From NCBI RefSeq assembly GCF_020080045.1, contig NZ_CP083451.1:744001-808000 (forward strand): a DNA stretch of 64,000 nucleotides, read 5' to 3'. The notes under the pieces are model-generated. The model searched no databases. It was not told where the DNA came from and worked only from the letters and a program-made list of their open reading frames with translations. The DNA is from Comamonas odontotermitis. GTDB taxonomy: Bacteria > Pseudomonadota > Gammaproteobacteria > Burkholderiales > Burkholderiaceae_C. A program made the position numbers and the translations under genes. Below are positions 1-31,247 of this stretch, in pieces (position 1 is the stretch's first letter; every line of letters starts with the position of its first letter).

Positions 1-140
1 AGCAATTGGGCGTAGAACTGCTTGGGCAGCGCGCTGCGGCTCATCAGGTCAGCCAGCACGCCCGGGGCAATCTTGCAGCCACAGCCGCCGCCATGGGACA
101 AGGAAGTGAGTCGAGGGGTCTGGGTGAGGTCGGTAGTCAT
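1..140 (-). CDS. selD: Selenide, water dikinase SelD (partial, N-terminus only)
   Basis: SelD uses ATP to turn selenide into selenophosphate, the selenium donor for SelA and for selenouridine synthesis in tRNA. Only the first 46 residues are present; the gene runs off the left edge. Residues 15-23 read SHGGGCGCK, the glycine-rich active-site loop, with C20 and K23 matching the catalytic Cys17 and Lys20 of E. coli SelD. C20 is encoded by TGT, so this SelD is the cysteine form and not itself a selenoprotein. The ATG is at 138-140 on the minus strand with no strong ribosome site. It is the fourth Sec gene in the window, with selA, selB and selC. It is transcribed divergently from yfiR, so any regulation is separate from the fdn-sel block. 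Confidence 0.9.
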
Positions 141-260: not shown

Positions 261-280
261 TTTACATTGCTAATTGTAAA
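261..280. promoter_or_regulatory. Short inverted repeat in the selD/yfiR divergent intergenic region
   Basis: TTTACA (261-266) and TGTAAA (275-280) form 6-bp arms around an 8-bp spacer in an AT-rich patch between the divergent selD and yfiR starts. It may be a regulator site or part of a promoter. The arms are short enough to occur by chance, so the call is weak. Nothing else was recognised between 141 and 356. Confidence 0.25.
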
Positions 281-356
281 TATATGGAAGAATGCCAGGG
301 GATTGACGGGGGAGATGCATGGCGCAATGTGTCTCCAGGCAGTTGTCACTGAAGTC

Positions 357-950
357 ATGGAGCTGTTGTTGTCATATTGGAGGCCAGGTCGAGGCAATCG
401 AACATGGTCCCGCCGCTTCAGCGGCTGGGCGTGGCTCTTTGCTGCCTGTTTAAGCTGGTCGGCGGTTGCGTCAGAGGCTACCGATGCAGAGGTAGCCGCT
501 GAAACCAATGTGCAAGCGGTAACGCGCACCGTGATCGGGATACTGGGCTATACGCGCTGGCCCCATGAAAGCGAAGAGTTGCGGCTGTGCGCAGTGGGCG
601 CCACGGAATATGGAGCAGGGTTGCTGCAAAGCTCCGGGCTGGCGGTCGCTGGTCGGCGTCTCAGTGTCAAACAGGTGGATTCCGCACAGCTGAAAGCCTC
701 CGAGTGCGATGGCCTCTATGTGGGAGACATGGGCGAGCAGCAGTGGCGCAAGCTGATGCAGCAAGAAAGCGGCCGCCCCCTGTTGACGATCAGTGAGCGC
801 AGTGCGCTGTGCCGCATCGGTGCCATGTTCTGCCTCAGCCGCCAAGGTGAAGGCCCGGGCTTTGAAGTCAATCTGGACTCGATTGCCCGCAGTGGCCTGC
901 GCATCAGTCCCAAGATACTGCAGCTGGCGCGGTCCAAGGCGGTGCCATGA
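357..950 (+). CDS. yfiR: YfiR-family periplasmic repressor of the YfiN diguanylate cyclase
   Basis: A DUF4154/YfiR-family protein. In Pseudomonas, YfiR is a periplasmic protein that binds the periplasmic domain of YfiN and holds it inactive; envelope or redox stress relieves this. Here an N-terminal hydrophobic stretch ends in SAVASEA, fitting a Sec signal peptide. The mature part carries the family's GYTRWP segment near its start, a C-terminal FEVNLDSIARSGLRISPKI-type segment and several cysteines. The start is uncertain: in-frame ATGs at 315, 327 and 357 are possible. I chose 357 (197 aa) because it best fits the usual length of about 190; a GGGGGAG tract at 308-314 would serve the ATG at 327. 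The stop overlaps the yfiN start by 4 bp (ATGA), so the two are translationally coupled. Confidence 0.82.
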   Translation: MELLLSYWRPGRGNRTWSRRFSGWAWLFAACLSWSAVASEATDAEVAAETNVQAVTRTVIGILGYTRWPHESEELRLCAVGATEYGAGLLQSSGLAVAGRRLSVKQVDSAQLKASECDGLYVGDMGEQQWRKLMQQESGRPLLTISERSALCRIGAMFCLSRQGEGPGFEVNLDSIARSGLRISPKILQLARSKAVP

Positions 951-2176
951 GCCTTTTCATGGACAGCCAGGCATCGTTGCACGCAGTGATCCGGCGGGCC
1001 CATCTGCGCATGGCCGCCATGGCCATCTCGCTGGCAGGCGTCCTGCTGCTCGTGGTCGGGGTGGTGGTGCTGCGTTTCTACCTGCTCAACAACTTGCAAT
1101 TGATGGCCCGATCTCTGGCCTATACGGTCGAAGCGTCGTTGGTGTTCAACGACCATGGCGAGGCCAGCAGGGTACTGGATCAATTGCTGCGAAACGAGGA
1201 TGTAGCCCGCAGCCAGGTGTTTGACGCCCAGGGGCAGGTATTTGTGCAGTGGAGTTCTGCCAAAACCAGCTCGGGTGGCACCGGTGAGTTGCTGGCGGCA
1301 GTCATGGGAATGCGCCCTGCCGAAGCGCCGGTGAGCCAGGATGGCAGGCAGATCGGGCGTGTGGTGCTCTACAGCGACGGCGCAGGGTTCATTCGATTTC
1401 TCAGCTCCGGCTTGGCGGTGCTGTTGCTGTGCGTGGGGGTCAGCGGATTTATCGGCATGCGCCAGTCACGCCGCATGCTGGCCGATATTGCCGAGCCGTT
1501 GCAGCAACTGGCCAGAGTGGCTCGCGCGGTGCGGCATGATCGATCCATGGGGCAACGCGTGCCTCCCGCCCGGATTGCGGAGCTGCATGAACTGGGCGAT
1601 GACTTCAATGCGCTGCTGTCTGAATTGCAAATGCGGCAGGAGCGGCTGCGGCAGCAGAACTCGCAATTGGAGCTGCAGGCATCGCGCGACGGCCTGACGG
1701 GGCTGGCCAATCGCTCACATTTCGAGCAGCGCCTTCAGCAGGCGCTGCTCGATGCGGAGGCCATGGGGCGCAAGCTCGCCGTACTTTTTATCGATAATGA
1801 CCGCTTCAAGCAGGTCAACGATATTCATGGCCATGCGGCCGGAGACGCGCTGCTCAGGGCGGTAGGGCTCCGCCTTCATTCCGTGGTGCGCGAGGCAGAC
1901 CTGGTTGCCAGGCTGGGCGGCGATGAATTTGCCATTCTGCTCTACCCCATTGGCGGCATGGCGGATGCCCAGGTGGTGGAGCACAAGATCCAGGAGGCGA
2001 TGCAGTGCCCTGTGGTGACCAGTAGCGGTGTAGCACTCAGGCCCTCCGTGAGCGTCGGTATTGCAGTCTTCCCGCAGCACGGGCAGGATATGGAGGAATT
2101 GATGGGCCACGCAGACCAAGCCATGTACGAAGCCAAGGTGGTACGCCATGCCGGAAGTGCTGCGAACAAGGAGTAA
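947..2176 (+). CDS. yfiN: YfiN/TpbB-type membrane diguanylate cyclase (HAMP-GGDEF)
   Basis: A 409-residue inner-membrane diguanylate cyclase that makes c-di-GMP from two GTP. Order of parts: a first membrane helix at about 20-46, a periplasmic PAS-like domain at about 50-140, a second helix at about 146-168, a HAMP linker, a coiled coil near 215-245 and a GGDEF domain to the end. The catalytic motif GGDEF is intact at residues 324-328. Five residues upstream lies READ, the RxxD form of a product-inhibition I-site. With yfiR before it (4-bp overlap) and yfiB 3 bp after it, this is the complete YfiBNR module. In Pseudomonas that module drives biofilm and small-colony phenotypes; the same role here is inferred. 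Confidence 0.9.
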   Translation: MSLFMDSQASLHAVIRRAHLRMAAMAISLAGVLLLVVGVVVLRFYLLNNLQLMARSLAYTVEASLVFNDHGEASRVLDQLLRNEDVARSQVFDAQGQVFVQWSSAKTSSGGTGELLAAVMGMRPAEAPVSQDGRQIGRVVLYSDGAGFIRFLSSGLAVLLLCVGVSGFIGMRQSRRMLADIAEPLQQLARVARAVRHDRSMGQRVPPARIAELHELGDDFNALLSELQMRQERLRQQNSQLELQASRDGLTGLANRSHFEQRLQQALLDAEAMGRKLAVLFIDNDRFKQVNDIHGHAAGDALLRAVGLRLHSVVREADLVARLGGDEFAILLYPIGGMADAQVVEHKIQEAMQCPVVTSSGVALRPSVSVGIAVFPQHGQDMEELMGHADQAMYEAKVVRHAGSAANKE

Positions 2177-2179
2177 ATA

Positions 2180-2704
2180 ATGGAGTGGAGCCAGAGAGCC
2201 GGGGAGAAGTCACGTATTGCCCATGGAATGCGTTGGGCCATGGCCATGGTATTGGCTGTGGTGCTGGCCGCGTGCCAGACTCCGCCACCGCCGCCAGTAC
2301 AGCAAAGCGGACTGACGGCGCAACAGCAACAGGTGCTGCGCAACCAGGGGTTCTCGGAAGGAGATCAAGGCTGGGAGTTGCAGATGTCCGGCAAGCTGCT
2401 TTTCGAGTTTGATTCTGCCGAGGTGGGCGAGGCTGCGCGCACCAAGGTCGTGGAGCTCGCGCGGGCCTTGCTGAAAGAGGGCATCGACCGGCTACGCGTG
2501 GAAGGCTATACCGACGACCGAGGCAGTGCGGCCTACAACCTGAAACTGTCATTGCGCAGAGCTCAGGCTGTGAGCGATGTGTTGGTAGAGGCTGGCATGC
2601 CCAGGCAGAACATCGAGGTCAAGGGGCTTGGCAATGCCTTGCCTGTCATATCGGGCAATGCCGCAGAAAATCGCCGTGTCGCCATTGTGGTGCCCTTGTT
2701 CTAG
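2180..2704 (+). CDS. yfiB: YfiB-like OmpA-family outer-membrane lipoprotein
   Basis: A 174-residue lipoprotein with a signal peptide ending in the lipobox LAAC (C32), a proline-rich linker and a C-terminal OmpA-like peptidoglycan-binding domain at about 68-174. The domain shows FEFDSAEV, the signature segment VEGYTDDRGS, and the conserved NRRVAIV near the end. In the Pseudomonas system YfiB sits in the outer membrane and sequesters YfiR, releasing YfiN. It is the last gene of yfiRNB, 3 bp after yfiN, which supports this role over that of a generic Pal homologue. The 17-residue region before the hydrophobic core is long, so translation might begin at the internal methionine M17. Confidence 0.88.
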   Translation: MEWSQRAGEKSRIAHGMRWAMAMVLAVVLAACQTPPPPPVQQSGLTAQQQQVLRNQGFSEGDQGWELQMSGKLLFEFDSAEVGEAARTKVVELARALLKEGIDRLRVEGYTDDRGSAAYNLKLSLRRAQAVSDVLVEAGMPRQNIEVKGLGNALPVISGNAAENRRVAIVVPLF

Positions 2705-2856
2705 ATGTGCAGCTGCCAAGGCACTTCTTCTTGATGCTGCGGCTTTACGAAGGCTCGGTGTTGGGGCGCAGGACTGTCCGTTGCGTGAGCGGAGTTGCTG
2801 CACCGCTTTCTGGCATGCAGGTGGTTTCAGCAGTTCTGTCATCCTGTAGGACGGGT

Positions 2857-3675
2857 ATGGGCAAGAGATGGAAAGCGCTGGCGCTGGTGCCCTGGGTTTT
2901 CTTGGTGGGCTGTACCCCGGCATCGAATCTGGATCACAAAGCGGATCGCACACAAAACCCTGCCAAGGACGCACGCTGGCTGACCTTGATCGTCAAGGCC
3001 GGGGACGGCATCGAGCCCCAGCCGGTCACGCTGGAATACGAATCAGAAAAATGCGAGGAGCCGAGGAGCTACGGCGTCGGTGGGCAGTCGCAAAGCGGCG
3101 TTGCCCTGATGCGGGCTTCTCACTACGAAAAGATCAGCCTTGATCGAGCGCCGGAGAACCATGTCTACAAGGCGCGCTTTGCGATCGATGCCGGAGGAAG
3201 CTGCCAGTGGAAGCTGGTGTCTCTGGAGACCTCGTTCAAATATCGGAGCCATCATCCCCTGGCCCAAGGCAAGGAAGCGATTTCGAACAGGGAGAAGTTC
3301 GCTTTCAGAAGTGAAAAGGACTCTGTTCGCACACCCAACGTGAGAGTCAATTTTGAGTATTTCCCAGTGGTTTATCTCCACGACCACCCATCGGAGAACA
3401 GGTTTCGGTTGCAGAAAAAGTCCATGTTCTTCCCGCCGAGTCTGGATCCGTCGGAGTCGGGGACCATGACCCTAGAGCCCAAGGTGTTTGGCGACATGGC
3501 GATGACGGTCGGCGAAGACCCCCAGAGCAGACGAAATTATGTCGTAGCCTATCCCGACGGCGCAAAGGGCACGAGCTGGTCCAGGGATGTAGTGGGAGTT
3601 GAGGACAAAAGAATGCAGTGCTTGCTCTCCCCTGCAAAACAGAATTGCGCCCGGTTCAGCCCTATAAAGCGCTGA
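2857..3675 (+). CDS. Hypothetical lipoprotein
   Basis: I do not recognise a family. The protein is 272 residues from the chosen ATG at 2857, which is preceded by an AGGA ribosome site. It begins with a short positive n-region (MGKRWK), a hydrophobic core and a lipobox FLVGC with C19, so it should be an outer- or inner-membrane lipoprotein. The reading frame is open upstream to 2707, but that version would place the signal peptide internally. The mature protein has several cysteines and no repeats or membrane helices. It follows yfiB by about 150 bp on the same strand and ends just before the convergent selC tRNA. A link to the yfi operon cannot be shown. Confidence 0.6.
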   Translation: MGKRWKALALVPWVFLVGCTPASNLDHKADRTQNPAKDARWLTLIVKAGDGIEPQPVTLEYESEKCEEPRSYGVGGQSQSGVALMRASHYEKISLDRAPENHVYKARFAIDAGGSCQWKLVSLETSFKYRSHHPLAQGKEAISNREKFAFRSEKDSVRTPNVRVNFEYFPVVYLHDHPSENRFRLQKKSMFFPPSLDPSESGTMTLEPKVFGDMAMTVGEDPQSRRNYVVAYPDGAKGTSWSRDVVGVEDKRMQCLLSPAKQNCARFSPIKR

Positions 3676-3698: not shown

Positions 3699-3794
3699 TG
3701 GCGGAGGGCAGCTGGAGTCGAACCAACCCAGGAGTGGCTGACACCCCTCACCGGGTTTGAAGCCCGGCCGCACCACCGGGCACGATTGCCTTCC
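3699..3794 (-). tRNA. selC: tRNA-Sec (anticodon TCA), including encoded CCA
   Basis: On the minus strand the transcript starts GGAAGGCA and ends TGCCCTCC-G-CCA, an eight-pair acceptor stem as expected for bacterial tRNA-Sec; pair 4 is an A.C mismatch. The anticodon stem-loop reads GGGCTTCAAACCC, giving anticodon TCA, which reads UGA. A long variable arm follows and the T-loop segment GGTTCGACTCC is present. The discriminator base is G and CCA is encoded. Total length of 96 with CCA matches selC (95 in E. coli). It sits 160 bp downstream of selB on the same strand, consistent with use together with SelA, SelB and the UGA in fdnG. Confidence 0.95.
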
Positions 3795-3954: not shown

Positions 3955-5877
3955 TCATGGCTGGCTGGCCTGCCAGCGCACACCGGGGCGCAGCATGTGG
4001 GCGTCGCGCACACGGCGGGTGTAGCCCACGCGGTCGAAGAACTCGAGGATCTGGATGGCGCGCTTGCGCCCGAGGCCTGTTGCATCTCGAAAGGCCGCAG
4101 CCTCCACCGCGCCCCGCTCGGCCTGCAAGGCCAGATCGGCGACCAATGCGGCCAGAGCATCGGTTTGCTCGGCTGCATAAAAGAGATCCTTGACAACCTG
4201 AAACACCAAGCCTTGCCGGGCCAATTTCTTGAGCAGTTGGCGTACCATTTCCTCGCCACTGCCGTGGTCCCGCGCGAGATCGCGAATCCAGGGCGGATCG
4301 AAACGGCCAGCGCCAATGGCGGGCAGCAGGCGCTCGGCCAAGGCCTGTTCAGCATTGCTCAACTGCACGCTGTGGCCTGGCAGATGCAGCCATGCACCGG
4401 TGGTGCTGATGTGCTGTGCCTGCAGCAAAGCCTCAATGAGGCTGGTGTAGAGCGCGTCGTGCATGCCATGCTGCAGGCTGGGCAATGCCATGCGGCGAAG
4501 GCGCGCAGCGTTGATGCCGGGCTCATCGGGCGCCACGCTGTGAAAACGTTCCAGGGCCTCAAGCACCTGGGTCTGCAGCGTCAGCCAAGCCCCATTGCTC
4601 AGCAAGAGCGCATCGCCATCCGTGGTGGGAAGTACGATGGCTTGGGCGGGGACCGGCGGCTGCGCCAGGCCTGTCAGCCGCACCAACTGGGATCGGGCGA
4701 TGCCATAAGAGGCCTCGGCCAACAGTGGTGCAGTGTCATGGCTTGTGACCCAGTGCTCCAGTGCTGCAAGGAACGCCAGCCGTGCCTCACTGCGGCGCTT
4801 GCGCGCTGGCGCATACGGGTCCAGCACCGTGGCCCCTGCAATGGTGCGGCTGGCCTGGGCATTGCGGATGATGATGCGATCACCCGGTTGTACAACGGCC
4901 GGCGCATCCAGCACCAGCTGGGCCAGGCATTCGGCTTCAGGCGGCAGTTCGCCGTCTTGCAGCAGGGCCACATGGCCGGTGCAGTGCATGGTGCCCAGGT
5001 GCATATGCACGGGCGCCCAGGGTTTGAGCGCTGGCGCACCGGCCAGCAACTGCAGTCGCACGTCGATACGTTGGGTGGTGTGCAGCAGGCGTGCATCCAG
5101 CAGCCAGTCGCCGCGCGCGATATCTTCCTTGGCAATGCCTGCAAGGTTGAGCGCACAGCGCTGTCCGGCCACGCCCTGGTTGCTCGCCCGGTTCTGCGCG
5201 TGGATGCTGCGCACCCGCACTGTCTTTCCGGTGGCCGAATGCACCAGGCTGTCGCCCACGGCAGCACTGCCATTGAAAACCGTACCCGTGACCACGGTCC
5301 CCTGTCCTGCCAGGCTGAACACGCGGTCGACGGCCAGGCGAAACAGGCCTTGCTGCGCGCGCTGGGGCATGGCCTGTGCAACGGCGTGCAGGTGCTGGCG
5401 CAGCGCATGCACGCCCTGGTCGCCCGGCAGTGCAGCCGCAGTCTCGAAAACAGGGGCATTGGCGAGAGGGCCATCTGCGAGAAGCGCGCGTATCGCATCC
5501 TTTACTATCGTCATGCGCTCGGGTGTTACGCGATCAACCTTGGTGAGCGCGACAGTGCCTTGTCGGACACCCAGCAGCTGCAGAATTTCCAGATGTTCGC
5601 GTGTCTGCGGCATCACCCCGTCATCGGCCGCCACCACCAGGAGTGCGTGGTCGATGCCCACGGCGCCTGCGGCCATGGTGTGAATGAACTTCTCATGCCC
5701 TGGCACATCGATGATGCCCAGTACATCACCATTGGACAGGGGGGCGTAGGCATAACCCAGCTCGATGGAGATACCGCGCGCCTTCTCTTCCTTGAGGCGG
5801 TCGGTTTCCACGCCCGTCAAGGCGCGTACCAGGGTGGTTTTGCCATGGTCAATATGGCCTGCGGTTCCAATGATCAT
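3955..5877 (-). CDS. selB: Selenocysteine-specific elongation factor SelB
   Basis: A 640-residue EF-Tu-like GTPase that carries Sec-tRNA(Sec) and binds the mRNA SECIS hairpin so that UGA is read as selenocysteine. The G1 loop is GHIDHGKT (7-14), G3 is DVPGH (57-61) and G4 is TKVD near 112. Domains II and III follow, then a C-terminal region of winged helices (about 400-640) that in SelB proteins binds SECIS RNA; its end contains a segment with [18 protein letters not shown]. coli SelB is 614 residues, so the length is normal. It starts 37 nt after the selA stop and is followed by selC. Confidence 0.97.
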
Positions 5878-5883
5878 TTGGAA

Positions 5884-5925
5884 ATGCTCTGTTTTTTATA
5901 GCTCTTGGCGATTTTCAGACGGGCG
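5884..5925. repeat. AT-rich fragment resembling the dispersed intergenic repeat (selA-selB gap)
   Basis: The short selA-selB gap holds TTTTTTATAGCTCTTGGCGAT, resembling one half of the dispersed ATAGCT..GCGCTT element seen best at 50612 and 20308. No second arm is clear, so this is a fragment or a chance resemblance. Confidence 0.3.
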
Positions 5926-7327
5926 CCAGAATAAGTTTCTTCCAGTTGTCGATGAACGCGGCCTGGTCTGTGGCTTCAAGGCAGCGCAGATCCAGCCACA
6001 GGGCATCCTGGCGCAGGCGGCCAATGACCGGGCGTGGCAGCCGACGAAGCGCAGCTTCGAGCTGCTGCAGCAACTGGCCGGCGCGCCTGGGGTCTGCGGA
6101 GCGGATCACCAGGCCATGGCTGGGCAGGCTTTCCACAGGCAGCGCGCCGCTGCCGATCTGGCTGGACATGGCAGCCGGCTCCACCACATACGCGGTGCCC
6201 AGCGCGCTTTGCACAGGGGCTTGCAGAACTTCGGCCTGCTGCTGCATGTCGGATGCAGCGCGGGTGAACAGGCGCAAGGTGGTGAGGCGAAGGGCCAATT
6301 GCTCGGGGTGCAGGTACAGGCTCAGGGTGGGCTCCAGCGCGGCCAGCGTCAGCTTGCCTACGCGCAATGCACGTTTGAGCGGGTTCTTCTTGATCTGTGC
6401 AATCAGTGTCTTCTTGCCGACGATGATGCCCGCCTGTGGGCCACCCAGCAATTTGTCGCCGCTGAAGGTGACGATGTCGGCGCCGGCTTCGACGGTTTCT
6501 CGCACCGTCACCTCGTACGGCAAGCCCCAGGCCCGCATGTCGACCAAGGTGCCACTGCCCAGGTCCACGATCATTGGCAGTTGGTGGGTGTGTGCAATAT
6601 TCGCCACGGCGGCATCCGAAACAGACTTGGTGAACCCCGAGATGGCGTAGTTGCTGCAATGCACCTTCATCAGCGCCGCCGTCTGGCCGGAGATGGCTTC
6701 GGCATAGTCCTTTTCATGTGTGCGGTTGGTGGTGCCGACTTCGACCAGGGTGGCGCCCGCGCGCGTCATCACATCGGGGATACGGAAGGCGCCGCCAATC
6801 TCCACCAGTTCACCGCGGGAGACGATAACCTCCCTGTTCGATGCCAGAGTGGACAGCACCAGCAGCACCGCCGCTGCGTTGTTGTTGACGATGGTGGCGG
6901 CTTCCGCGCCGGTCAGGCGGCAGATCAGGTCCTCTACCAGATCGTCGCGGTCGCCGCGGCCCCCATCGGCCAGGTCATATTCCAGGTTGCTGGGTGTGGC
7001 CAGCGCCTGCACCACGGCGTCCATGGCCTCCTGCGGCAGCAGTGCGCGGCCTAGGTTGGTGTGCAGCACGGTTCCGGTCAGGTTGTAGACGGCCCGCAGG
7101 CGAGGGGCAAATAGCCGCTGCAGCGCATGCTCGGCAGCATCCAGCAGGGCGTCGGCACTGGGCGCGGTCTGGCTGTCCTTGGCTGCCAACCACTGGGCGC
7201 GAGCGTCTGCAAGCGCTGCGCGAATGGCATCGGTGCATTGCGTTTTGCCATAGTGCGCAAGCAGCCCGGCAGTACGGGGATGCTGCAGCAACTTGTCGAC
7301 GGAGGGCAGGTGAGAGGCAGTGCGCAT
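5915..7327 (-). CDS. selA: L-seryl-tRNA(Sec) selenium transferase SelA
   Basis: A PLP enzyme that converts Ser-tRNA(Sec) to Sec-tRNA(Sec) using selenophosphate. The 470-residue protein shows the family landmarks [16 protein letters not shown] in the N-terminal third, NNNAAAVLL, and the cofactor lysine K292 in [14 protein letters not shown] (Lys295 in E. coli SelA). I chose ATG 7327, beginning [15 protein letters not shown], because it aligns with the known N-terminus (E. coli 463 aa). An in-frame methionine at 7375 would place a strong terminator-like hairpin inside the coding region. The ribosome site is weak. It lies between fdhE and selB on the minus strand, separated from fdhE by that hairpin. 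Confidence 0.96.
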
Positions 7328-7340
7328 GGGTGAAACGTCT

Positions 7341-7379
7341 AAAAACGAAAAACGATGGTGCGGGTAAGCAACCATCGTT
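7341..7379 (-). terminator. Intrinsic terminator or attenuator between fdhE and selA
   Basis: On the minus strand AACGATGGT pairs with ACCATCGTT (9 bp, 11-nt loop; arms at 7371-7379 and 7351-7359), followed directly by TTTCGTTTTT. It lies after the fdhE stop (7445) and only 13 nt before the selA ATG. It could end the fdn transcript, attenuate selA, or both. Confidence 0.7.
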
Positions 7380-7444
7380 CTAGTATGGCATGGTGGCACG
7401 GCGCGCATCATTGCGCCTTGCCATCAGCAGCCGGCGGGCCGCCG

Positions 7445-8407
7445 TCAGTGCAGGTCGGGCACGGAAGCGCTGTCGTCCGCCTGGGGTTCCGCCACGGCAA
7501 CAAACAGCAACGGGTTGCCGCTGGCGCGCTGGAACCGGGTCTCTTCGCTCATCAGCAGATCGAGCATCAGGCTGGCCAGATCATCGGCCAGCGGCTCGGC
7601 CAACGGGTCCTTTTCCTGGTTGACGATCTTGCGGTAGCTGCCGCACGCGTCACAGGTTTCGGCGAGCACCACATCCTTGCCACCTTCCAGGCCCTGGTAG
7701 TGAATGCCTTTGGTCGATTCGCAGTGCGAGCACTTGACGCGCACCATATGCCATTCGGTGCTGCAGCAGCCGCAGTGCAGATAACGGTGACCGGCCATCT
7801 TGCCGCCAATGCGCACCACGCTGGCCACCGGCTCGGCGGCGCATACGGGGCAGATGGTGGCGGGATCGGTGTAGGGCACGTCGCCGGCCCGCAACTGGCT
7901 TGCGCGGCGGGCAAACACCACCTGCAGCGCGGCCATGGCAAAGGGGGCCATACCCACATCGCGTGCAGCCAATTCCTTGGTGAGCAGGCGCTTTGCCAGG
8001 GCGTTGCGCTCCTCGGCACTTGTTGCCTGCAGCTCTGCAATCAGTGGTTGCAGTGGCGCGGGCAGCCCGCCTGCGCCGGAGAGATCGGCCAGCATGCCAT
8101 CCAACACCTGGTGCCAGACGGGGTCGAGATGGTCTGCGGCCGGCAGCAGTGGCGACGAAAATTCCTGCGCCTGTGCAATGGCCGCTGCATCGGGCTCTGC
8201 CACACGCAAGTTCTGCACGGCGCGGTGCTGGGCCTGCACCAGACTGGCGATGAAGTTCAGGTAGTCGGCAATCGGGTTGCCTTCGGCCAGCTGGCGGATG
8301 CGATTGGCGCGTTCCAGAAACAGGCTGCTGGTATCGGGCAGCAGCACGCGCGGAAAGCTGGTGTGGTCCAGCGACTCGATCTCGCCGGGTTGAAGAATGC
8401 GTTGCAT
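7445..8407 (-). CDS. fdhE: Formate dehydrogenase accessory protein FdhE
   Basis: A 320-residue cytoplasmic protein needed for formate dehydrogenase activity in E. coli, where it binds the Tat-exported catalytic subunit and has a rubredoxin-like iron site. The C-terminal half has the expected paired cysteine knuckles: CPVC near 190, HCGCC and CSHC near 220-235 and CDACG near 260. Length matches the family (E. coli 309 aa). It follows fdnI on the minus strand, with a 10-bp inverted repeat in the 101-nt gap, and precedes the hairpin before selA. Its place inside the fdn-sel block supports the assignment. Confidence 0.95.
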   Translation of the reverse strand: MQRILQPGEIESLDHTSFPRVLLPDTSSLFLERANRIRQLAEGNPIADYLNFIASLVQAQHRAVQNLRVAEPDAAAIAQAQEFSSPLLPAADHLDPVWHQVLDGMLADLSGAGGLPAPLQPLIAELQATSAEERNALAKRLLTKELAARDVGMAPFAMAALQVVFARRASQLRAGDVPYTDPATICPVCAAEPVASVVRIGGKMAGHRYLHCGCCSTEWHMVRVKCSHCESTKGIHYQGLEGGKDVVLAETCDACGSYRKIVNQEKDPLAEPLADDLASLMLDLLMSEETRFQRASGNPLLFVAVAEPQADDSASVPDLH

Positions 8408-8508: not shown

Positions 8509-9135
8509 TCAGTCCTTCTCGCCCGTCATGCGGCGGTACCACAGCGGGTGGTGGAACCGGGCCCAGGCGCGGGTCACGGTACCACGTGTCATGGCGCGGA
8601 TGGTGCCCTTGGTCCAGATGGCAGCGTAGATGTGCGCAATGATGAGTCCGATCAGGCCGAAAGCCGAGATGGCATGGATCAGGCTGGCGGCACGCACCAC
8701 GTTCACAGGCAGATTCCACCAGGCACGCCACATCAGCACGCCGGTGACGACGAGGCCGAGCATGCACAGCACCAGCATCCAGAACAGCACCTTCTGGCCG
8801 CCGTTGTACTTTTCAGCGGGTGGGATCTTGTCATGCTCACCCTTGACGAGGGCCGGCACATTCTTGAGCCACTCCACATCGCGCTCCTTGATGATGTTCA
8901 GCTGCCAGAAGCGGAAGAACATCAGCAGGAAGCCAAAGGCCATGACCAGGCCGATGTAGGGGTGCAGAATGCGCGTCCAGGGCCCGCCGCCAAACAGGTT
9001 CGTCATGAAGAAGAACGACGGGTGGAAGAACGCCAGACCGGACAGCGCCAGCAGCACAAAGCTGATGGCAACAACCCAGTGGTTGGCACGCTCCGCAGCG
9101 CTGTAGCGTTGGATGTCTCGGTTGGTGCGGCTCAT
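8509..9135 (-). CDS. fdnI: Formate dehydrogenase gamma subunit, cytochrome b556
   Basis: A 208-residue inner-membrane cytochrome b that takes electrons from the FeS subunit and passes them to quinone. Four hydrophobic helices are visible, at about 18-45, 50-75, 110-135 and 150-175, with histidines suitable for haem ligation, including those in [10 protein letters not shown] and [10 protein letters not shown] and in IIAHIYAA. Size matches FdnI/FdoI of E. coli (about 211-217 aa). Its ATG overlaps the end of fdnH by 4 bp, showing translational coupling. FdnI and FdoI cannot be separated from sequence alone. Confidence 0.94.
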
Positions 9136-10061
9136 CGTCCTGCCTCCTTGTGGTTGTCGGCATCGGCCTTGCGGGCCTCTTCCTCCTCCAGCTCCTCGGG
9201 CACTTCAAGCGGACCCTTGGTGATGTAGTGGAAGAAGCTGCCGACTGCTGCGGCGCCCAATGCGGCCAGTGCCAGCGGCTTGGCCACGCCTTTCCACAGG
9301 CTGACCATGGGGCTGATCTTGGGATCGTCGGGCAGGCCGTGGTAGAGCGATGGCTGGTCTGCATGGTGCAGCACATACATCACATGCGTGCCGCCCACGC
9401 CTTGCGGATCGTACAGGCCAGCCTTGGCAAAACCGCGTTCCTTCAGGTCGGCGATCCGCTCGTCGGCGCGCTCCTGCATGCCCTGCTTGGTGCCGAACAT
9501 GATGGCGCCCGTGGGGCAGGTCTTGACGCAGGCTGGCTCCTGGCCCACCGCAACGCGGTCAGAGCACAGCGTGCACTTGTAGGCCTTGTGGTCCTTTTGC
9601 GAGATGCGAGGAATGTTGAACGGGCAGCCGGTGACGCAGTAGCCGCAGCCCACGCAGTTTTCCTCCTGGAAATCCACGATGCCGTTGGCGTATTGCACGA
9701 TCGCGCCGGGCGAAGGGCAGGCCTTCAGGCAACCTGGGTCTTCGCAGTGCATGCAGCCGTCCTTGCGGATCAGCCATTCCAGATTGCCGGTGGCCTCGTT
9801 CTCGTATTCGGAGAACCGCATCACGGTCCACGAGTTGGCGCTCAGGTCGGTCGGGTTGTCATACACCCCGGCCGCAGCGGTGCCCACGTCGTCACGCAGA
9901 TCGTTCCACTCCATGCAGGCGGTCTGGCAGGCTTTGCAGCCGATGCACTTGGAGACATCGATCAGCTTGGCCACCTCGCCGCCATGCGCGTCGCGCACGC
10001 TGGGCGATGGGGTGGTGGTAGCGGAGCGGCGCTTGATATCCAATGATTGTAGAGATGACAT
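9132..10061 (-). CDS. fdnH: Formate dehydrogenase beta subunit, four [4Fe-4S] ferredoxin-type
   Basis: A 309-residue electron-transfer subunit linking the catalytic subunit to cytochrome b. Four cysteine groups are visible: [11 protein letters not shown] near 38, [14 protein letters not shown] near 100, [12 protein letters not shown] near 135 and CTLC..ACVKTCP near 160-185. A single hydrophobic helix near 255-275 ([18 protein letters not shown]) would anchor it in the membrane, as in FdnH/FdoH. It starts 9 nt after the fdnG stop and overlaps fdnI by 4 bp. The C-terminal tail after the helix is acidic and lysine-poor, ending in [12 protein letters not shown]. Confidence 0.95.
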
Positions 10062-10070
10062 CGCTGCTCC

Positions 10071-13000
10071 TTAGACCTTCTCGACCTTCACCAGGAAGGT
10101 CTTGAACTCGGGCGTGTTGCTGTTACCGTCGCCCACGAACGGGGTGAGGGTATTGGCCAGGAAGCCCGGCTTGGTCAGGCCCTTGAAGCCCCAGTGGATG
10201 GGAATACCCACGTGGTGCACCGTCTTGCCTTCAATCTGCATGGGCTTGATGCGCTTGGTAACCACTGCCGCTGCCTTGATGTAGCCGCGCTTGGAGCTGA
10301 CCTTCACCATGGAGCCGGTGGTGATGCCGATCTCCTTGGCCAGGGCTTCGCCGATCTCGACGAACTGCTCTGGCTGGATGATGGAGTTCAGCAGCGCATG
10401 CTTGGTCCAGTAGTGGAAATGCTCGGTCAGGCGGTACGTGGTGCCCACGTGCGGGAACTCCGAAGCCTTGCCGAAGGTTTCCCAGATGGCCGGGAAGACA
10501 CGGGCTGCCGGGTTGCTGACGGCCTTGTCGTTCTTCGGGTACATCGGGTTGTAGCCCAGCGGATTGTCGAACGCCTCGTAGTGCGTCGGGAACGGTCCTT
10601 CGTTCATGCCCTTGCGCGCAAAGAAGCGCGCCACCCCTTCGGGGTTCATGATGAACGGGCCGGTACCGGCCTCCGGCTTGATCGCCACGCCATAGTCGGG
10701 CACATCCGCGCCACCCCAGGCCTTGCCGTTCCATTTGACCAGCATGCGGTTGGGGTTGAAAGGCTTGCCTTCCAGGTCGGCAGACGCTCGGTTGTACAGC
10801 ACCCGGCGGTTGGCCGGCCAGGCCCAGGCCCAGTTCAGCGTGTTACCGATACCGGTGGGGTCGCTGTTGTCGCGGCGGCCCATCTGGTTGCCCGCTTCCG
10901 TCCAGCAGCCGGTGTAAATCCAGCAGCCGCTCATGGTGGTGCCGTCGTCACGCAGCTCGCCAAAGCCCGACAGCTGCTGGCCTGCAGGGCGCAGCACTTT
11001 GCCATCGGCATCGGTCAGGTCGGCCAGTGCGCGGCCGTTGTACTCCTTGGCCAGCTCTTCCGAAGACGGATGGGCTGGCTGGGCGTAGGGCCACCACAGG
11101 TTGACGATCGGGTCGGGGAACTTGCCGCCGTCCTTCTGGTAGGCAGCCTTCATGCGCAGGTGCAGTGCCGACATGATGGCGACGTCGGTCTTGGCTTCTC
11201 CAGGAGGCTCCGACGCCTTCCAGTGCCACTGCAGCACACGCGACGAACTCACGACCGCGCCATCCTCTTCTGCGAAGCAGGTGGTGGGCAGGCGGAACAC
11301 CTCGGTCTGTACCGATGCCGTGTCGATGTCGTTGTACTCGCCGTAGTTCTTCCAGAACTCCGAAGTCTCGGTGGCCAGCGGATCCATGATGACCAGGAAC
11401 TTCAGCTTGGCCAGGCCCGCACGGGTGCGGTCCTTGTTCGACAACGCCGCCAGCGGGTTGAAGCCCTGGGCGATGTAGCCGTTGACCTTGCCTTCGTTCA
11501 TCAGCTCGAAGATCTGCAGCATGTCGTACTGCTTGTCGAGCTTGGGCAGGTAGTCATAGGCCCAGTTGTTGTCCTTGGTGGCCGCAGGGCCCCACAAGGC
11601 CTTCATCAGGCTGACGTGGAACTTGGGGTAGTTCTGCCAGTAGCTCATCTGGTTGGCGCGCAAAGGCTTTTGCGTGCGTGCTTCGATGTACTTCTGGTAG
11701 TCCTGCTCGCCCTGGTTCGCCAAGGTCAGGTAGCCAGGCAGTGCGTTGGACAGCAGGCCCAGGTCGGTCAGGCCCTGGATGTTGGAGTGGCCGCGCAGCG
11801 CGTTCATGCCGCCGCCTGCAACACCGATATTGCCCAGCAGCAACTGCACCATGGCGCCGGTACGCAGAATCTGCGCGCCGATCGAGTGCTGTGTCCAGCC
11901 GAGGGCGTACAGAATGGTCGCAGCGCGGCCAGCCTGTGCGGTGGATGCGAGCTTTTCGCACACGTGCAGGAACTTGTCCTTGGGCGTGCCGCAGGCGCTC
12001 TCCACTTTCTCAGGCGTGTAGCTGGCGTAATGGCGTTTGAGCCACTGGTAGACGCAACGCGGGTGCTGCAGGCTCGGGTCGGTCTTGACGTAGCCGTCCT
12101 CGCCCAGCTCGTAATCCCAGCTGGCCTTGTCGTAGGTGCGCTTTTCGGGGTTGTAGCCCGAGAAGATGCCTTCGTCGAACGCGAAATCCTCACGCACGAT
12201 GAAGGTGAAGTCCGTGTAATTGCGCACGTACTCGTGGTGGATCTTGTCGTTCGTCAGCAGGTAGTTGATCACACCGCCGAGGAAAACAATGTCCGAACCT
12301 GAACGGATAGGGGCGTAGAAATCCGCCACCGAAGCCGAACGGTTGAAGCGCGGGTCGACTACCATGAAGTGAGCCTTGTTGTGCTCCTTCGCCTCGGTCA
12401 CCCATTTGAAGCCGCAGGGGTGGGCTTCAGCGGCATTGCCGCCCATGATCAAAATAACGTCCGCGTTCTTGATGTCGACCCAATGGTTCGTCATCGCTCC
12501 ACGGCCAAACGTCGGGGCAAGACCTGCCACCGTCGGGCCGTGTCAGACACGGGCTTGGTTATCGAACGCCAACATGCCCCATGAGCGGGCCACTTTGTAG
12601 GTGATGTATCCGGCTTCGTTGCTGGCAGCCGATGCGGCCAGCATGCCGGTCGTCGTCCAGCGGTTCACCGTCAGACCGTCATCGGTCTTCTCCAGAAAGT
12701 TCGCGTCGCGGTCTTCCTTGATCAGCTTGGTGATGCGGGTCAGCGCCTCGTCCCACGACAGGCGCTTCCACTCGTTGGAGCCGGGCGCACGGTATTCGGG
12801 GTAGAGCAGGCGGTTGGGGCTCTTGACGATGTCGAGCAGCGATGCACCCTTGGGGCATAGCGTGCCGCGGTTGACCGGATGGTCCGGATCACCTTCGACG
12901 TGCATGATCGACAGCTTGGCATTCTTGCCACCGTCGCCAAGGGAATACATCAAAATACCGCAGCCGACAGAACAGTAGGTACACGTCTGGCGTGTCACCG

Positions 13001-13133
13001 TGCTGCCGACCAGTTTGTACTGGCGGACTTCAGCCAAGGCGGTGGCGGGCGAGAAGCCCATCACGGCCAAGCTGGATCCTGCCAGGGTAGAGCCAGTCAC
13101 TTTCATGAACTGGCGCCTGGAGAATTGCACCAT
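10071..13133 (-). CDS. fdnG: Selenocysteine-containing formate dehydrogenase alpha subunit (in-frame TGA = Sec197)
   Basis: A 1020-residue molybdopterin catalytic subunit oxidising formate to CO2 in the periplasm. ATG 13133 follows AAAGGA and gives a Tat signal peptide with SRRQFMK at residues 5-11. A [4Fe-4S] site begins CTYCSVGCG, with CPKGAS further on. The frame is interrupted by TGA at 12543-12545, codon 197, in the context NQARV-U-HGPTV; this matches Sec196 of E. coli FdnG, and the frame is open on both sides with family-like sequence. A SECIS hairpin lies immediately 3' of the TGA, and selA, selB and selC are downstream. Annotation that treats TGA as stop would wrongly split it into a 196-residue fragment and an 819-residue fragment. 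The frame is open upstream to 13184 via TTG, but that start lacks a ribosome site. Confidence 0.96.
12500..12545 (-). promoter_or_regulatory. Bacterial SECIS element with its UGA (selenocysteine insertion)
   Basis: TGA at 12543-12545 is followed by an RNA hairpin. The outer stem CACGGCC/GGCCGTG (12536-12542 with 12500-12506) is 7 perfect pairs. The apical stem is GGCA/TGCC around the loop GGTCT, the same loop sequence as in the E. coli fdhF and fdnG SECIS elements that SelB binds. The coding sequence around it (HGPTVAGLAPTFGRG) is also conserved protein, so the hairpin is embedded in codons. Confidence 0.92.
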
Positions 13134-13339: not shown

Positions 13340-13963
13340 ATGAATACGATGCACTTCGTCACTGCATTCCGCACTTTGAAACCAGAGGATGAGCCCGCTT
13401 CTGCGTCCGCTGCCATGCGTCGGCGCATGCTGCTGCTCGGGGTGCCGGCGGCAGTGCTGCTGGCAGGTTGCGCCTCCAGACCGGCATCCAACGGCTCGCA
13501 GGCGTCGGCAGATCCAACGCGCCGCAGGCCGGCGGGCGCTCCGGATGGCGGTGTGGTGCCCATCAACCTGGGCCTGAGCGGCGAGTTGCGCGACACCCTG
13601 TATGCGCGTGTGATGATGGTGGTCAATACCCCCTACACCTACGGCGGCAACACCCCTGAGGGTGGCTTTGACTGCAGCGGCCTGATCCAGTATGCGATGG
13701 CTGGCATCACCACCCGCAAGCTGCCCCGCACCACATCGCAGTGGGCGGGGGTGAGCGCGCCGATTGACCGCAGCGATCTGCAACGCGGCGATTTCGTTTT
13801 CTTCAACACCCTGGGCGGGCGCTATTCGCACATGGGCATCTATGCGGGCAGCAACCAGTTCGTGCACGCGCCATCGAGCGGTGGCGTGGTCCGAACGGTC
13901 AGCATGACCAACCCCTACTTTGCCAAGCGCTTTACCGAGGCCCGGACGGTGTTTGACGCCTAA
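13340..13963 (+). CDS. NlpC/P60-family cell-wall hydrolase, lipoprotein
   Basis: A 207-residue putative DL-endopeptidase of the Spr/NlpC type acting on peptidoglycan. A hydrophobic segment ends in the lipobox LLAGC (C44), then a linker, then the NlpC/P60 domain at about 85-205. The catalytic triad is visible: C112 in GGFDCSGL, a histidine in YSHMGIY and a second polar histidine in FVHAPSS. The long n-region suggests that the true start may be the ATG at 13415, which would give C19; neither start has a strong ribosome site. Its stop overlaps the stop of the convergent DUF6314-like gene by 4 bp. It is divergent from fdnG across a 206-bp region. Confidence 0.88.
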   Translation: MNTMHFVTAFRTLKPEDEPASASAAMRRRMLLLGVPAAVLLAGCASRPASNGSQASADPTRRRPAGAPDGGVVPINLGLSGELRDTLYARVMMVVNTPYTYGGNTPEGGFDCSGLIQYAMAGITTRKLPRTTSQWAGVSAPIDRSDLQRGDFVFFNTLGGRYSHMGIYAGSNQFVHAPSSGGVVRTVSMTNPYFAKRFTEARTVFDA

Positions 13964-30916: not shown

Positions 30917-30993
30917 TGGTGGTCGTAGTGGGACTTGAACCTACGACATCAGCATTATGAATGCTGCGCTCTAACCAACTGAGCTATACGACC
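30917..30993 (-). tRNA. tRNA with anticodon CAT (elongator Met), copy 1, including CCA
   Basis: The minus-strand cloverleaf starts GGTCGTATAGCTCAG and ends CTACGACC-A-CCA. The acceptor stem pairs fully and the anticodon loop TTCATAA gives CAT. It lacks the initiator features (unpaired first base, three G-C pairs in the anticodon stem), so it is elongator tRNA-Met; an Ile2 tRNA with lysidine-modified CAT is the alternative. It is identical to copy 2 at 31171. Confidence 0.93.
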
Positions 30994-31170: not shown

Positions 31171-31247
31171 TGGTGGTCGTAGTGGGACTTGAACCTACGA
31201 CATCAGCATTATGAATGCTGCGCTCTAACCAACTGAGCTATACGACC
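31171..31247 (-). tRNA. tRNA with anticodon CAT (elongator Met), copy 2, including CCA
   Basis: Identical in sequence to copy 1, 177 bp upstream of it in the direction of transcription, with the same anticodon loop TTCATAA, encoded CCA and a matching terminator hairpin. The two copies appear to be separate transcription units. Confidence 0.93.

Follow-up and report, generated by a model that had tools for sequence, protein, structure and literature searches.

The region analysed is a 64,000-nucleotide window of DNA from Comamonas odontotermitis, and by the window we mean that whole stretch. On its minus strand lies fdnG (10071..13133), which encodes a formate dehydrogenase-N alpha subunit of 1020 residues, residue 197 being specified by a lone UGA (12543..12545), and was assigned with the family model TIGR01553 and the solved sequence 1kqf_A. 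Downstream of fdnG on the same strand follow genes for an fdnH-like iron-sulphur beta subunit (9132..10061; TIGR01582, 470.6 bits against a cut-off of 334.7, and PF09163), an fdnI-like cytochrome b gamma subunit (8509..9135; TIGR01583, 189.5 bits, cut-off 115.85, and PF01292) and the formate dehydrogenase accessory protein FdhE (7445..8407; TIGR01562, 273.2 bits, cut-off 187.65). The gamma subunit scores under the cut-offs of the narrower models NF007924 and NF007558, as does FdhE with the narrower model NF002925. Divergent from fdnG, a gene for an NlpC/P60 cell-wall peptidase was recognized by family search on the plus strand (13340-13963), and two adjacent tRNA-Met genes with equal scores are found farther away on the minus strand (30917-30993 and 31171-31247).

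Gene order then continues on the minus strand with selA, encoding selenocysteine synthase (5915..7411; TIGR00474, 592.9 bits, cut-off 267.9), selB, encoding the selenocysteine-specific elongation factor (3955..5877; TIGR00475, 481 bits, cut-off 242.25), and selC, the selenocysteine tRNA with anticodon TCA (3699..3794), which was detected by ARAGORN and by RF01852 at 74.4 bits against a gathering score of 47. The profile match of SelA starts at residue 33 and the true start of selA may be further in. SelB contains the C-terminal winged-helix domains PF25461, PF09106, PF21214 and PF09107, which we take to be the part of the protein that binds the hairpin, and selC is the only one of 13 RF01852 matches in the genome that exceeds the cut-off. 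The gene for selenophosphate synthase, selD, extends over the window's left boundary, with its 5' end at 1..113 on the minus strand and the rest to the left (G000:C1:743187-744113); it scores 430.1 bits with TIGR00476 (cut-off 125), and its frame has Cys, and no stop, in the motif HGGGCGCK. All of selA, selB, selC and selD, which together define the selenocysteine-decoding trait, are present over their cut-offs, and the decoding kit shares with its target a span of roughly 14 kb, measured between selD and the fdnG start. Between selD and selC the plus strand (267-3675) carries several genes, which by eye we presume to encode a YfiR-type protein, a GGDEF cyclase and an OmpA-like lipoprotein, the last gene in this group coding for an unassigned protein.

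The TGA at 12543-12545 is present in the sequence, and translation with table 11 divides fdnG at this codon, as an earlier note on this DNA had said, into an upstream piece of 196 codons that runs from the ATG at 13133 to 12546 and an 819-residue frame (12530-10071) in the open reading frame list. The GTG at which that second frame begins is codon 202 of fdnG and is located within the hairpin described below; this start is an artefact and there is no separate gene, with 823 sense codons following the UGA. If the TGA is counted as one residue, U197, there is no frameshift and the open frame extends over 1020 residues. The two halves also continue one family as had been claimed, with the 196-residue piece covering positions 2-194 of the TIGR01553 profile and the 819-residue piece positions 201-1009. 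Read through its one TGA, fdnG scores 1464.4 bits with this model against a curated cut-off of 814.2, and the C-terminal piece alone scores 1179.7 bits. The coordinates under which the earlier note filed the gene (12500-13133) do contain the UGA but take in just the 5' part of the gene. Correct annotation is of importance here, as table 11 cuts fdnG into two false pieces or could suggest a pseudogene.

The solved sequence 1kqf, the nitrate-inducible formate dehydrogenase of E. coli (FdnG), is the top match among 24 solved sequences at E up to 1e-30, with 1545 bits over residues 4-1019, so the alignment to FdnG that had been proposed as a check gives a full-length result. In this alignment the UGA falls on the X of 1kqf_A within NQARV-X-HGPTVA, which is the known selenocysteine position, as had been asserted. 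The translation UHGP corresponds to the metal-ligating motif UHxP, with the residue at the position where members of the family carry Sec or Cys; the motif UHxP is given in a published account (PMC13188914). No second alpha subunit over the TIGR01553 cut-off was found in the genome, where the best of six other matches reaches 111.4 bits, and at three other genomic loci (L128-L130) a regular-expression search aimed at the active-site residue produced nothing usable. Near the N-terminus of FdnG is the sequence SRRQFMK, which we assume to be a twin-arginine-like signal.

The UGA is accompanied by a bacterial SECIS element of the family SECIS_3 (RF01989; 12490..12548, minus strand). The 59 bases from 12548 to 12490, starting one codon ahead of the UGA, match the model over its full length (positions 1-59) at 85.3 bits against a gathering score of 63, with an E value of 7.2e-19 over the 64-kb window. 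With the UGA at its 5' end and a score above the gathering threshold, the hairpin belongs among bacterial SECIS elements, and the covariance scan that had been suggested for it thus came out in its favor. A genome-wide search at E up to 0.001 yielded no second SECIS_3, the fdnG element being the sole match. Folding of 12500-12545, in which the folded part occupies 12500-12542, gives the 7-bp outer stem (CACGGCC/GGCCGUG) and the apical loop (5 nt, GGUCU) that had been read from the sequence, at -24.4 kcal/mol. Dinucleotide shuffles fold equally well in 3/200 cases for the 46-nt piece, 5/200 for the 59-nt piece and 11/200 for 81 nt (z of -3.0, -2.3 and -1.8, respectively), while a wider piece of 117 nt shows no advantage over its shuffles (34/200, z -0.94). 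The thermodynamic excess of the hairpin is therefore moderate and folding energy alone is modest evidence. Energy is a weak test here because the hairpin of E. coli fdnG itself fails to stand out by this measure, with 39/200 of its shuffles folding equally well. What takes the hairpin beyond chance is not folding energy but the SECIS_3 family match together with a freeze of silent sites.

This freeze was measured in 80 sequences, comprising the window's own gene and 79 of 80 relatives of fdnG, which were the best 80 of 592 confirmed matches and show 72-100% identity in the best segment. The relative left out of the count, a Comamonas denitrificans gene (strain MM2021_4; L062), has a second in-frame stop, TAG. 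That extra stop is near the N-terminus and the match to the gene starts at residue 20; the copy is either decayed or an assembly error. Among codons with at least four synonyms, those of positions 198-212 have a mean entropy of 0.14 bits (13 codons) compared with 1.12 elsewhere in fdnG (323 codons). The Mann-Whitney p value of 3.8e-9 for this contrast overstates its significance because the relatives are kin, and hence not independent, and were chosen as best matches to the query. For example, GCA, GGT and CTT in the hairpin each occur in 80/80 sequences, against gene-wide shares of 12%, 13% and 5%. Synonymous choice is nearly frozen in the hairpin and free across most of fdnG.

Pairing was counted in all 19 distinct UGA-bearing 59-mers from the fetched loci, E. 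coli included. Of 304 cells, 97.0% are paired in the hairpin structure, as opposed to 25-53% after shifting the partner by 1 to 3 columns, and the nine unpaired cells are all in the outer helix, five of them at pair 8-48. In the upper stem two pairs are changed on both sides, in five cells (shuffle means 0.5 and 0.5), a count of doubly changed pairs that is reached by 35/500 shuffles; two doubly changed pairs, in two cells, are also obtained with the +3 shift. As for pair types, their number is unremarkable and is reached by 147/500 shuffles.

All 80 of these best relatives have TGA at the UGA position, and they come from Comamonas, Ideonella, Acidovorax, Delftia, Burkholderia, Achromobacter, Pandoraea, Caballeronia, Luteimonas and other genera. 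The nearest named neighbour is Comamonas odontotermitis, with 100% identity in the best segment, in keeping with an origin of the window in that species or a close relative. The window's 59-base element is exactly identical in 21 of the 80. In a wider survey of 100 whole genomes SECIS_3 was matched in 58 and exceeded the cut-off in 57, the matches being distributed over 49/53 genomes of the genus (its own included), 1/7 from other genera of the family and 8/40 from elsewhere in the order. The four genomes of the genus that lack a match (G005, G010, G014 and G024) have listed completeness of 85, 85, 85 and 59%. The genomes G032, G040 and G008, all from the genus, contain second fdnG-like copies (L044, L045 and L046) with TGA and a SECIS_3 over the cut-off; these copies have one common 59-mer, the upper stem of which differs by compensatory pairs. 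Sub-cut-off SECIS_3 matches, at 28 to 46 bits, number 11 and are in other genomes. A Cys codon, TGC or TGT, replaces TGA in 10/10 of those that were fetched, the eleventh (in G042, 28.4 bits) being a partial match at a contig end that was left out of the codon check. Nine of these Cys copies, from the genus, read QARLCHGPTV, and one (L037), from another family of the order, reads QARVCHGPTV.

We interpret the locus as a complete fdnGHI-type respiratory formate dehydrogenase operon with a selenocysteine kit, in which UGA 197 is, on this sequence evidence, almost certainly read as selenocysteine. A single stop interrupting the frame in a table 11 translation would also be seen if fdnG were a pseudogene, through nonsense mutation or sequencing error. 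Such an origin is vanishingly improbable and we reject it, as the identical UGA occurs in 80/80 relatives (the best 80 of 592), all of which would need to share the error, while the silent sites of the hairpin are frozen and the decoding genes adjoin fdnG. It is also extremely improbable that the UGA is decoded as some other residue, by a near-cognate tRNA or a different kind of recoding, given that the genome has a selenocysteine tRNA with anticodon TCA, a SECIS_3 hairpin and a SelB that includes the C-terminal domains, and given that the ten copies from other genomes have Cys at the UGA position, as exchange between Sec and Cys predicts.

Decoding of UGA by SelB competes with termination, a fact that speaks for the UGA as a selenium-dependent switch that mostly stops translation when selenium is scarce, with the hairpin being chiefly regulatory. 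We consider such a function very unlikely. The product of termination would be the 196-residue piece, in which family search detects the iron-sulphur domain and only the beginning of the molybdopterin domain, and nothing about this piece suggests an independent use; moreover, switching would be a side effect that leaves the identity of the element the same. The SECIS_3 element, the four sel genes and the constancy of the UGA in those best 80 of 592 matches argue for the claim of the earlier note that the enzyme is a selenoprotein and not the product of a pseudogene.

With UGA 197 read as selenocysteine, and beyond the codon, hairpin, gene set, conservation and constraint that are observed directly, the course of events can be proposed by analogy with E. 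coli. SelC would be charged through SelA using selenophosphate from SelD, and the resulting selenocysteyl-tRNA would be carried by SelB, which is presumably also the reader of the hairpin in the fdnG mRNA. At a ribosome that has reached UGA 197, SelB with its selenocysteyl-tRNA would bind the hairpin just downstream and selenocysteine would be inserted. Selenocysteine 197 would then ligate the active-site metal of an enzyme expected to oxidize formate at the periplasmic face, with electrons from formate reaching the quinone pool by way of the beta and gamma subunits. All three steps, namely the insertion of selenocysteine, the ligation of the metal and the flow of electrons, are inferred from E. 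coli, and UGA read as Sec in fdnG is an ordinary, textbook case with a mechanism that is already known.

Comparison with E. coli FdnG (1kqf) shows the same family over the full length, at the 1545 bits given above, and a UGA at the same place. The SECIS_3 of E. coli fdnG (strain 214-4) scores 84.3 bits, nearly equal to the 85.3 bits found here; the two hairpins have GUCU in the loop in common but differ at several positions. The 201 bases around the UGA are matched in 5375/5426 E. coli genomes. Unlike in E. coli, the operon is here followed by fdhE-selA-selB-selC, genes which in E. coli we understand to lie elsewhere than the fdn operon. FdnG orthologues from Comamonas, Ideonella, Acidovorax, Delftia, Burkholderia, Achromobacter and other genera, in which codon and hairpin were compared closely, show no relevant difference. 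In contrast, the Cys-type copies in other genomes of the genus (L034-L036 and L038-L043) have the same motif, QARLCHGPTV, with TGC in place of the TGA, and their SECIS_3 scores of 38 to 46 bits are below the cut-off of 63. According to PMC13188914, the SECIS elements of the three E. coli formate dehydrogenases are the best characterised in bacteria, and formate dehydrogenase is the bacterial selenoprotein family with the widest distribution. Among the titles retrieved on selenocysteine, formate dehydrogenase and Comamonas, none is about the fdnG of this window.

Nearly fixed silent sites are also seen outside of the hairpin, at window positions 12456-12497 and 12546-12551 (codons 213-226 and 195-196), and reach to about codon 224. 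In the 80 sequences codons 195-196 and 212-224 are nearly fixed silently, and some of the codons kept are minority choices in the gene, such as CGT at 195 (76/80; gene-wide share 18%), GGA at 212 (69/80; 5%) and CAT at 217 (75/80; 31%). The mRNA around the SECIS may hold a second signal, for example one for ribosome pausing or SelB release, a proposal that we regard as doubtful. Shared descent of the 80 sequences counts against it, as does the stretch downstream of the hairpin, which folds no better than shuffles (53/200). Additionally, codons 196 and 212-215 are already inside the 59-nt Rfam model, and codons 216 and 220-223 are favorites of fdnG anyway, at 74-87%.
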